A DNA stretch of 64,000 nt from Candidatus Thiodictyon syntrophicum (GTDB lineage Bacteria > Pseudomonadota > Gammaproteobacteria > Chromatiales > Chromatiaceae): NCBI RefSeq assembly GCF_002813775.1, contig NZ_CP020370.1, forward strand, positions 3,001,501-3,065,500, given 5' to 3'. The position numbers and the translations under genes are program-made. Under the pieces are notes generated by a model. That model was not told the origin of the DNA, made no database searches, and saw only the letters and a list, made by a program, of their open reading frames with translations. The stretch's first letter is position 1; every line of letters begins with the position of its first letter. Positions 18,185 through 40,484 of the stretch are shown here, one piece after another.

Positions 18185-18345
18185 CATAGTCTAGTGGGTG
18201 CAAATCCCACCTGGGTAATCGTGAGCCGCGAGCCCAGTATCGAGCCTTGCGGCGCGAACGGTAACGGGCGCGTCGATGCGTAGGCACGAAAGCAGGCGAG
18301 GTGTAAAGGTAACGGGTGGAGGCGACCTTGAAGGTGTTGAGCCCC
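18185..18345 (+). other. Possible group II intron 5'-domain remnant
   Basis: Within a 740-bp gene-free gap (17874-18613), the stretch starting GTGGGTGCAAATCCCAC, then GGGTAATCGTGAGCCGCGAG, and later GAAAGCAGG and GGTAACGGGTGGAGGCGACC resembles domain I of bacterial group II introns. No reverse transcriptase frame or domain V is seen, so it would be a fragment. The rest of the gap holds a GGTCCGC palindrome pair (18410-18467) and nothing else recognised. Confidence 0.35.
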
Positions 18346-18409
18346 GAAAATTGTAACCGTTTAGCCCCCCCTGTTCTTAGCCCCCTCGCGGATCCGGCCA
18401 GCAACGCCC

Positions 18410-27819: not shown

Positions 27820-27908
27820 GAGCCCCGAAGGGGCGTGACATACCAGCCCAGGGCAACGCCCTGGGTATGAGGCATATAGCGGGGCCCAGCCCTGAAAGGC
27901 CGTGACAC
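27820..27908. repeat. ~90-bp repeat, copy 2 (inverted relative to 19944)
   Basis: Reverse-complement relative of 19944-20032, with CATACCAGCCCAGGGCAACG and CCCAGCCCTGAAAGGCCGTG. With copy C of the hexanucleotide element it accounts for most of 27583-27971; no gene is seen there. Confidence 0.75.
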
Positions 27909-38116: not shown

Positions 38117-38196
38117 GACCGGAGGTCGAGGCTTTAGCCGGTCGCTATCGCATCGGCTTGGCCCTGGTCCGGCTAAGCCTCGACCTCCAGTGCGCA
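38117..38196. repeat. Inverted repeat, GGAGGTCGAGGCT family
   Basis: GGAGGTCGAGGCTTTAGCCG and its facing copy CGGCTAAGCCTCGACCTCC surround about 35 bp. A related pair is at 49834-49894. With a single GTAGGGTGCGC arm at 38067-38090 it makes up most of 38002-38281, which holds no gene. Confidence 0.7.
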
Positions 38197-38281: not shown

Positions 38282-40321
38282 ATGCCAACATCAGATCGCC
38301 CGCTGGTCGCCCATGATGAGCGCGACACCGGCCCCGCGGTTCCTCAGGTGGAACTGTTGTCGCGGGCGCCGGGTCCCGCGACGGTGCGCGAGCCGCTGCG
38401 CCAGGCGGCCCGTTTCAGGCTCTTCGCGGTGGTCTTCACCCTGGTCCTGGTCGGCGGGTCCCTGTGGAATTTCACCCGCCCAGCCCAGTACCGGGCGACG
38501 GCGACCGTGCTGATCGAGGTCCCCGAGGGGATCGGCTTCACTGCCGGGACGCTCGGTGCCGACCCCCAGAACGTCGCGGTCCAGGGCCGTATCCTGCTGG
38601 CCCAGGACCTCCTGGCGGACACCCTGGCGCGGGCGCTGTCCATTGACCCGGGGCTCAGCGCCCTGGACCCGGACGGCCTGCGGCGGCTCTTGGACGTCCA
38701 GCCGACCGCGGGGACCAATCTGGTCGAGTTGAGCGCCGTCGGCCCGGCCCCGGCGCAACTCGCGGTCCTGGTGAACGCCTGGATCGAGGCCTATCTGGCC
38801 CGGCGACAGACCCAGATCGAGGGCGACGTCGGGGCGGTCCAGGCGCGGCTCCAAGAGGAATACGACCGCCTCGACGCCCAGAAGCGGGAGAAGGCCGCGG
38901 CGCTCGACCGTTACCGCCAGGAACACAGCATCGACACCATGGAGCAGGCGGGCAACCAGGCCCCGGCGCGGCTCGACGCCCTGACCAAGGATCTCAACAC
39001 CGCGCGGGCCGATGAGGTGAAGGCGCAGTCCCAACTCACGGCCTTGGACGAGGCGATCGCCCGCGGAGAGCAGGTCGTGCCGCCCGCCGAGCAGGGCGCC
39101 GTGCAGCAGATGGAGCAGGAGGCGGCCAAGCGCCGCGCCGATCTCGCGGTCCTCTCCCAGCGTTACACCAAGGTCTACCTGGACAGCGAGCCGAGCCTGA
39201 AGGAACTGCCCGGCGAGTTGGCCCGGTTGGAGGCACGGATCAAAGAGCAACTGACCAAGGGGCAGAACTATTTGCGTTCCGGGCTGACCCGGGAGTTGGA
39301 CCGGGCGCGCCGCCAGACCCGCCTCCTGGAGCAACAGCTCGGCGTGCAGCGCTCCGAGGCGTCGCGTTTCACCGCCCGCTTTGCCCGCTACGAGACCCTG
39401 AAACAGGACCTGGCGCGGGTCGATGAACAGCATCGCGACCTGGAAAAGCGCCTGCTCGAGGTCAAGACCAAGGCCCCGGCCCGGTATGCCCAGGTCAAGG
39501 TGGTGGAGCCCGCCTTTGCCCCCCGCCGCCCCTTCCAGCCCGATTATTGGCGGGACTTCCTCTACAACCTGGTCGCCGCGGGGGTGACGGCGCTCCTGGC
39601 CATCCTGCTCCTGGAGTTCCTGACCAGGCGCGAACGCTCGCAGGAGGAACAGCAGCCGGTCACCGGGGTGCGGGTCTTTGCACCACAGCCGACGGCCCAG
39701 GCCCTGACCGAGCCTGCCGTCGACCAGGCCTTCGCCGCCCGGCGGGCCCCCGAGGCCCTGGACGCGGATGAGGTGCGGCGCCTGCCGGGTGCCATCGAGC
39801 GCGAGTTGCTGGCGGCCGAGGTCCGCGCCCTGACCGAGCTCGCGGACCCGGCGACCCGGCAATTGATCGGCCTGCTCCTGTCCGGGCTCACTCCGCGGGA
39901 GTGCGCGGACCTGGACGAGACGGACATCGATCTCGCGGGCGGGCAGGTACGGGTGCCCGGTGACGGGCGCGTGCTCGCCCTGAGCCCGGCCCTGGCCGCG
40001 CTGCTGGCCGGGCATCAGCCCGTCCCCCTGTGGTCCGGAGACCCGGCGGCCGGGGGGGCCCCGGGGCTCATGGCGCGCATCGGGCTCCTGGCCCACGACG
40101 CGGGTCTGTCACACCCCGCGGAGGTGGACGCCGCCGCGCTGCGCCACACCTACATCTGCTACCTGGTGCGCCAGGGCGCCCGCCTGACCGAGATCGAACG
40201 GATCATCGGCCGCCTCCCGGCCGCGGAACTGGCCCGCTACGGCGTCTACAGCCCGGCCGGCGCGGCCAAGCCGCTGGGGCAGGTCGCGCTGGACTATCCG
40301 GGCTTTGCCGACCGTAGCTGA
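38282..40321 (+). CDS. Wzz/GumC chain-length protein fused to tyrosine-recombinase-like domain
   Basis: A 679-residue protein in one unbroken frame. Residues 45-63 are membrane helix 1, 64-180 the Wzz periplasmic base (YRATATVLIEVPEG), 180-400 a long coiled coil, and 427-447 membrane helix 2, preceded by the Pro-rich APRRPFQPDY. This is the plan of polysaccharide co-polymerases. The cytoplasmic tail, where Wzc carries a tyrosine kinase, instead resembles a phage-integrase domain (about 515-660): LLLSGLTPRECADLDETDID, AALRHTYICYLVRQGARLTE and RYGVYSP. Arg539, Arg621 and a Tyr (653 or 656) are kept; two usual His positions are changed (Ala, Arg). It may therefore bind rather than cut DNA, or serve as a scaffold. 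Confidence 0.82.
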   Translation: MPTSDRPLVAHDERDTGPAVPQVELLSRAPGPATVREPLRQAARFRLFAVVFTLVLVGGSLWNFTRPAQYRATATVLIEVPEGIGFTAGTLGADPQNVAVQGRILLAQDLLADTLARALSIDPGLSALDPDGLRRLLDVQPTAGTNLVELSAVGPAPAQLAVLVNAWIEAYLARRQTQIEGDVGAVQARLQEEYDRLDAQKREKAAALDRYRQEHSIDTMEQAGNQAPARLDALTKDLNTARADEVKAQSQLTALDEAIARGEQVVPPAEQGAVQQMEQEAAKRRADLAVLSQRYTKVYLDSEPSLKELPGELARLEARIKEQLTKGQNYLRSGLTRELDRARRQTRLLEQQLGVQRSEASRFTARFARYETLKQDLARVDEQHRDLEKRLLEVKTKAPARYAQVKVVEPAFAPRRPFQPDYWRDFLYNLVAAGVTALLAILLLEFLTRRERSQEEQQPVTGVRVFAPQPTAQALTEPAVDQAFAARRAPEALDADEVRRLPGAIERELLAAEVRALTELADPATRQLIGLLLSGLTPRECADLDETDIDLAGGQVRVPGDGRVLALSPALAALLAGHQPVPLWSGDPAAGGAPGLMARIGLLAHDAGLSHPAEVDAAALRHTYICYLVRQGARLTEIERIIGRLPAAELARYGVYSPAGAAKPLGQVALDYPGFADRS

Positions 40322-40380
40322 TCCTGCGGGTCAGCGGCGGGTCTTGACCATAACGCCGGCCAAGCGCCCTTGCGGTAACC

Positions 40381-40435
40381 CGTCGCGGCCTGGGGGCCGC
40401 TCCTACGTCGTAGGAGCGGCCCCCAGGCCGCGACG
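40381..40435. terminator. Perfect 26-bp inverted repeat between convergent genes
   Basis: Arms 40381-40406 and 40410-40435 are exact reverse complements (starting CGTCGCGGCCTGGGGGCC) with a 3-nt loop. It lies 60 bp after the Wzz-fusion stop and 50 bp after the end of the ERCC4 gene on the other strand, so a bidirectional terminator role is plausible. No U-tract follows; a dispersed palindrome is the alternative. Confidence 0.6.
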
Positions 40436-40484
40436 GATATCACCACGATTCGGGACGCAGCATGGTCAAGGTTGGTTTGGCGGG

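Follow-up and report, generated by a model that had tools for sequence, protein, structure and literature searches.

What is a fold from DNA enzymes doing at the foot of a polysaccharide co-polymerase (PCP)? PCP-2 proteins have been described with a fused kinase, a separate kinase, or a dead kinase that is either separate or fused (PMC12004946, in the part of that paper drawn on here). A gene of the purple sulfur bacterium Candidatus Thiodictyon syntrophicum appears to carry something else at the kinase site. It lies in a stretch of 64,000 nucleotides that we analysed as a whole (the window; contig NZ_CP020370.1, positions 3,001,501 to 3,065,500). A preliminary description had read the gene as a single frame in which a recombinase-like tail replaces the kinase of a PCP, and had suggested that the tail might bind DNA or another partner, linking capsule export to the chromosome or to protein-protein signalling. 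We found no description of a fusion between a PCP and a recombinase or integrase in the open-licence literature.

Layout of the gene and its protein

The open reading frame at 38282-40321 on the forward strand starts with ATG, is uninterrupted by stops and encodes 679 aa. The motifs LSGLTPRECADLDETDID, ALRHTYICYLVRQG and RYGVYSP are all found in this protein, whose features are as follows.

38282..40321, + strand: whole gene, PCP module and putative pseudo-recombinase tail (679 aa; 49 further tail-bearing homologues)
38420..38476, + strand: membrane helix 1, residues ~47-65 (hydropathy)
38477..39568, + strand: presumed periplasmic PCP module, residues ~66-429 (profile match to Wzc and PslE; NCBIfam EpsF 57.9 bits)
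39569..39625, + strand: membrane helix 2, residues ~430-448 (hydropathy)
39647..39772, + strand: variable linker, residues 456-497 (dN/dS 0.25-0.74 over ten pairs; in each pair it exceeds that of the PCP part and of the tail)
39773..40309, + strand: predicted dead tyrosine-recombinase catalytic-fold domain, residues 498-676 (sequence profiles)
39890..39892, + strand: Thr537 at the catalytic Arg I position (Arg in 0/50 members)
40133..40135, + strand: Ala618 at the first catalytic His position (His in 0/50)
40142..40144, + strand: Arg621 at the Arg II position (Arg in 32/50)
40211..40213, + strand: Arg644 at the second His position (His in 1/49, Trp in 0/49)
40238..40240, + strand: Tyr653 at the nucleophile position (Tyr in 24/49)
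40250..40300, + strand: family-specific C-terminal peptide SPAGAAKPLGQVALDYP, occupying the position of the recombinase C-terminal segment

The two hydrophobic segments agree with the pair of membrane helices described earlier. They flank a module homologous to Wzz and Wzc, which is the arrangement of PCP-2 (GumC-Wzc) proteins, and by analogy with Wzc this module is presumed to be periplasmic. The stretch between the helices also gave weak matches to coiled-coil proteins, for example Rad50 and SMC.

An assembly artefact is ruled out, and so is a frameshift, which the preliminary description named as what could undo its reading. The same fusion occurs in 50 genes from separate genomes, and the chromosome was sequenced by PacBio. 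The source genome has 7,738,984 bases in 3 contigs; the genome report for T. syntrophicum Cad16T gives, in the part drawn on here, PacBio RS II data at 200x and replicons of 6,837,296 (chromosome), 416,864 and 484,824 (plasmids) (PMC5944118). The fusion read in the preliminary description is confirmed.

A full-length family profile searched against solved structures matched Wzc (E 4.3e-13) together with IntI4 (1.3e-12), XerA (8e-11) and XerD (2.3e-10), and profile searching relates the PCP part to both Wzc and PslE. The query alone stays below the cut-offs of the Pfam Wzz family (17.5 bits against 25.5) and of NCBIfam EpsF (57.9 bits against 422.75). When 22 members were compared with Pfam at E <= 0.01, Wzz was found in 10 and Phage_integrase in 4. 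The BY-kinase domain that marks PCP-2a proteins was found neither in the query (Pfam and NCBIfam) nor among the eight families listed for the 22 members. We also considered the tail of PslE as a hidden relative of the recombinase-like tail; this is ruled out, as PslE is absent from the tail-profile matches even at E 10. Two members (L146 and L147, from genomes G844 and G848) have an insertion of ~70-100 aa within the PCP part.

A recombinase fold with a degenerate active site

Taken alone, the query matches the Pfam family Phage_integrase at E 0.21 (11.8 bits against a cut-off of 27.1) and an XerA-type NCBIfam model at E 1.2e-5, far under its cut-off. A profile built from 22 tails matched IntI4 (E 1.9e-14), an XerC-like protein (1e-13), XerD (3.4e-12) and XerA (4.5e-12) among solved structures. 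The profile-profile check suggested in the preliminary description recovered the recombinase fold: hhalign aligned the tail profile with eight recombinases at a probability of 98.5% (E 3.3e-15), against 0.1% for all five column-shuffled profiles and 0.1% for the PCP half. The shuffled controls rule out chance similarity. Over a small set of frames the same profile found the source genome’s own XerD-like, integron-integrase-like and mobile recombinases, labels assigned in this analysis, at E 1e-13 to 1e-15. The homology spans about 160-180 residues, and these comparisons indicate that the tail has the catalytic fold of a tyrosine recombinase. The core-binding domain is missing: the profile match begins near XerD residue 98, and the variable linker and a membrane helix lie upstream. 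Several types of recombinase score alike against the tail profile, and no one subfamily stands out as its source. The source genome itself carries one tyrosine recombinase, in a 321-aa frame, at 13 equal-scoring places (L080-L092, on contigs C1 and C3), probably a recently spread mobile element.

The catalytic columns were read from an alignment of 50 members and three recombinases of the source genome. We take the XerD counterparts to be R148 (Arg I), H244 (first His), R247 (Arg II), H270 (second His) and Y279 (Tyr). The earlier assignment of the integrase arginine to Arg539 was two residues off, because alignment on the conserved G535 and E540 puts Thr537 at the Arg I position; position 539 is Arg in 3/50 members and T, M and S in the three recombinases. 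At the Arg I position the members have T (19), S (16), D (6), Q (4), A (2), K (2) or E (1), and never Arg. Arg621 and Tyr653 had been placed correctly, and the degeneracy noted in the query, where the first His is replaced by Ala618 and the later one by Arg644, extends through the family, with His in 0/50 and 1/49 members. Arg II is kept more often (R 32, W 15, H 2, Q 1 of 50), as is the nucleophile (Y 24, L 18, F 4, C 3 of 49), while Lys is found in 2/48 members in a column where the alignment is gapped. Arg II and Tyr are kept jointly in 23/49 members, the query among them, which could mean that some residual function is left. A functional recombinase is ruled out by the losses at Arg I and at both histidines and, judged by these residues, the domain is catalytically dead in every member examined.

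What surrounds the active site has been kept. G535 (50/50), E540 (47/50), R563 (49/50), G632 (50/50) and G643 (49/49) form a conserved skeleton, and a new C-terminal motif has Pro658 in 44/49 members, Gly660 in 42/48, Tyr672 in 36/48 and Pro673 in 47/48. The net charge of the last 180 aa ranges from -17 to +1 over the 50 members (mean -7.3), a range in which L142 and L145 count more linker than the others, as they end early. Thirteen recombinase frames have charges of +4 to +16 (L078 +4, L093 +7, L094 +16, for example), and three others, L098, L099 and L100, of +3, +5 and +6. Nine of the 13 are from the source genome and four from others; they amount to 12 distinct frames, since L093 and L097 share one.

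Distribution, origin and selection

The search for other Wzz proteins with the same tail, likewise proposed at the outset, returned 49. The 50 tail-bearing proteins including the query (22 in alignment A5 and 28 more) comprise 44 from the same family and 6 from five other gammaproteobacterial families, the latter in genomes G141, G407, G334, G398, G177 and G772, all outside the order. L142 and L145 stop at or in the tail because their contigs end, and a further copy (G046:C65), broken off at a contig end, was left out of the 50. Near-full-length relatives share 71-95% identity within the genus and 31-50% in other genera of the family; those with names, Lamprocystis purpurea DSM 4197 among them, belong to Thiodictyon and Lamprocystis, and one further relative is listed as a Chromatiaceae bacterium.

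In the sample of the order, 46/210 genomes have a match at E <= 1e-40, every one of them in the same family, and 44 of these are tail-bearing. The remaining 164/210 have no match at this threshold, nor do 2/8 genomes of the genus (G001 and G004). Full-length matches occur in 6/369 genomes of the class sample and in 3/398 of the phylum sample, the query’s genome being counted in both. None of those in the phylum sample lies outside the class, where three genomes, from other classes, matched with the PCP part only. The distribution of the family is patchy.

One genome, G935, is a natural tail deletion. Both of its family genes (L148 and L149) are without the tail, one encoding a PCP of 482 aa and the other a fragment, and neither locus has a tail match. 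The tail has been lost from both genes, which means that it is not indispensable everywhere. In Ca. Thiodictyon intracellulare (G003; L008 1877-3125) the copy is split among three frames, and up to the end of the contig there is no tail match. A broken copy in this endosymbiont fits the loss of a surface function inside the host cell, or an error in a draft assembly.

In a FastTree phylogeny of 77 PCP modules, the 50 proteins with the tail group with the tail-less G935 protein on one side of a single split, opposite 26 other PCPs, with support of 0.92 and 1.0 at the two branches next to the midpoint root. The tree shows a single origin of the fusion within the sample, on modules in which nearer tail-less relatives could be missed because the 26 other PCPs are only those that the searches returned. 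Nei-Gojobori dN/dS over ten pairs was 0.22-0.33 for the tail, 0.10-0.44 for the PCP part and 0.25-0.74 for the linker. These ratios indicate that the tail is under purifying selection, and in 8/10 pairs constraint is weaker on the tail than on the PCP part.

Genomic neighbourhood

The gene lies directly downstream of hemE (URO-D, 486 bits). An ERCC4-type nuclease and a carbonic anhydrase are encoded on the opposite strand downstream. Across the 21 regions compared, hemE is directly upstream in 6 (G086 and the Thiodictyon- and Lamprocystis-like genomes), and 5 have a UvrD-type helicase nearby; similarities other than these two join at most 4 of the 21 regions. No partner gene keeps a fixed place across distant regions, which rules out an operon partner. 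A mobile gene was likewise considered and rejected, as the regions share no mobile context and transposases lie near two members only (L066 and L072) among 30 neighbours. Those 30 hand-picked neighbours, from 14 regions, include by Pfam two family-2 glycosyltransferases and four proteins without a Pfam family; known export proteins of the Wza, Wzx or Wzy kind were absent among them at E <= 1e-5.

We searched the source genome and 20 others for Poly_export (Wza-type) genes, and the fusion gene does not lie at a Wza locus as PCP-2 genes do. In the source genome, four of the five Poly_export genes have another Wzz-type gene at a distance of 0.3-0.7 kb, and the fusion gene has none of the five nearby. 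In the 20 other genomes the gene had no Poly_export match closer than 20 kb on the same contig; 14 of them have 20-kb flanks on both sides (G935 among them, with its tail-less gene) and six (G398, G019, G006, G086, G032 and G072) have shorter flanks; G032, which is 84% complete, has no Poly_export match at all. The nearest in any of the other genomes is 20.2 kb from the gene, in G925.

The window has several other elements. A perfect 28-nt inverted repeat lies just downstream of the gene (40380-40436). The pattern GTAGGAGCGGCCNNNNGGCCGCGAC (<=1 mismatch) has 162 copies across the genome, 83 of them forward and 79 reverse, against 0 for a control, and among the places listed it frequently forms head-to-head pairs, in the manner of REP/BIME elements. 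Between hemE and the gene (38118-38191) is a 17-nt inverted repeat (94%) with arms 40 nt apart, possibly a terminator or a small repeat. A group II intron D1-D4-6 match (60.8 bits) is found at 18201-18384 (+), and an Acido-Lenti-1 RNA match (39.8 bits; gathering score 37) at 27821-27865 (-).

Discussion

We consider it on balance probable that the dead recombinase tail is a protein-contact scaffold domain of the PCP, an estimate that overlaps with two alternatives weighed below, the recruitment of a partner and the loss of the co-polymerase role. A domesticated, catalytically dead tyrosine-recombinase fold would then make up the cytoplasmic part of an inner-membrane protein resembling PCP-2 proteins. 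This protein would form rings through its membrane and periplasmic part, as Wzc does, with the tail beneath the ring acting through protein-protein contact. In the most economical form neighbouring tails would touch, and the conserved C-terminal peptide would dock on its own domain or on that of a neighbour. The tail would thus stand in for the BY-kinase, either by setting the oligomeric state as a scaffold independent of phosphorylation or by recruiting a cytoplasmic partner. With its active site lost, the old DNA enzyme seems to have taken on a structural role on the inner side of the membrane.

Tyrosine recombinases form rings in which each subunit hands its C-terminal segment to the next. 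The Wzc octamer is held by a C-terminal tail placed in the neighbour’s kinase site, and phosphorylation loosens it (in the part of PMC8285477 used here). EcpK, a dead kinase put forward as a scaffold, serves the PCP EpsV of Myxococcus, which has no kinase domain, and other PCPs carry a fused pseudokinase (PMC12004946, same part as above). Together, the Wzc tail swap, the EcpK pseudokinase and the exchange of C-terminal segments between recombinases suggest that a dead recombinase under a PCP could hold a ring without chemistry. The boldest form of this idea, that the dead recombinase drives assembly of the membrane ring by reusing the donation of its C-terminal segment to close a cytoplasmic ring under the PCP, free of kinase and of phosphorylation, we regard as unlikely.

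The scaffold reading is favoured by the family-wide loss of catalysis beside a kept skeleton, by purifying selection, charge and the new C-terminal motif, by the single clade, by homology to Wzc and PslE and by the precedents. Against it stand the retained pairs of Arg II and Tyr, the patchy distribution, the tail loss in G935 and the weaker constraint on the tail than on the PCP part. We infer both the ring and the role in polysaccharide export, because the gene has no fixed partner and is unlinked to any Wza-type export gene.

Like Wzc, which the family profile matches at E 4.3e-13, and other PCP-2a proteins, the fusion protein has two membrane helices, a large module between them and a C-terminal domain. 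Unlike them it has no kinase family, appears to carry a dead recombinase fold instead and is not encoded beside a Wza-type gene. With EcpK/EpsV and the PCPs with fused BY-pseudokinases it would share a cytoplasmic partner domain that has lost catalysis and is proposed as a scaffold (PMC12004946, as above); there, however, catalysis was lost from a kinase fold, which PCPs usually have as their partner, whereas here the dead domain is the unrelated fold of a DNA enzyme. The catalytic-domain fold is homologous to that of XerC, XerD, XerA and the integron integrases, yet the tail lacks the core-binding domain, has lost the active site, is acidic or neutral and is anchored to the membrane. In eukaryotes, recombinase folds with a lost catalytic site have been reused in Cbf2/Ndc10, which binds centromere DNA, and in Crypton-derived genes, whose DUF3504 domains have been suggested to bind DNA (PMC3212892, in the portion drawn on here). 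These reused domains are eukaryotic and associated with DNA, whereas the tail is bacterial, membrane-bound and probably not DNA-binding.

Those eukaryotic examples (PMC3212892, same portion) are nevertheless an argument that the dead fold still binds DNA, specifically or not, and serves as a membrane tether, holding the chromosome at an envelope complex or controlling a gene; the retention of Arg II in 32/50 members points the same way. Against this, the tails of the 50 members range in charge from -17 to +1 and 16 recombinase frames from +3 to +16; Arg I and the first His are lost in 50/50; the profile match starts near XerD residue 98 and so lacks the core-binding domain; and the linker evolves fast. 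A tail that is acidic or neutral and has no core-binding domain makes such a tether distinctly improbable, and the proposed link to the chromosome fares poorly; of the options first put forward, protein-protein interaction is the one that these sequence features favour. A passenger tail, left over neutrally from a mobile-element recombinase that was joined by accident, can be set almost wholly aside. The 13 equal-scoring copies of one recombinase show that sources are abundant, and G935 has dispensed with the tail, but 50 proteins spread over six gammaproteobacterial families, a tail dN/dS of 0.22-0.33 and a conserved new C-terminal motif disfavour a passenger.

The remaining two alternatives are closer to the scaffold reading. 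The tail may recruit a specific cytoplasmic partner, such as a glycosyltransferase, a regulator or a cytoskeletal protein, rather than set the oligomeric state of the ring. The strongly conserved C-terminal motif would suit this, and, with the gene in an orphan position, the partner could be encoded anywhere in the genome. A family-2 glycosyltransferase gene lies nearby in 2/14 of the scanned regions (L068 and L073), yet distant regions show no partner gene at a fixed place. These two glycosyltransferases, 51% identical to each other, may be unrelated to export, because that of L068 (1.6 kb from the gene) adjoins what is presumably a selenodomain-associated transferase. Recruitment of this kind seems to us a minority prospect. 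Somewhat less improbable, and still doubtful, is that the protein has ceased to be a polysaccharide co-polymerase and become a PCP-derived envelope scaffold with an unrelated role, which is compatible with a scaffold role for the tail. In the source genome, four of the five Poly_export genes have another Wzz-type gene within 1 kb and none is near the fusion gene; in the 14 other genomes whose contigs extend 20 kb or more to either side there is none within 20 kb, the closest being the one at 20.2 kb in G925; and the PCP part falls under the Pfam and NCBIfam cut-offs. The PCP part is nevertheless still recognisable kin of Wzc and PslE, and an unlinked PCP could serve an unlinked pathway; linkage was scored with Wza-type genes.

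A conserved family, of single origin within the sample, with what appears to be a dead recombinase fold at the kinase site suggests that the kinase of a PCP can be replaced by a structural module. The family is thus a natural test of whether the essential job of the kinase is phosphorylation or control of the ring. It also offers a bacterial example of a recombinase fold probably reused outside DNA transactions. If a dead recombinase does drive the ring, it would be a second, kinase-free way of controlling PCP rings, built from a DNA enzyme.
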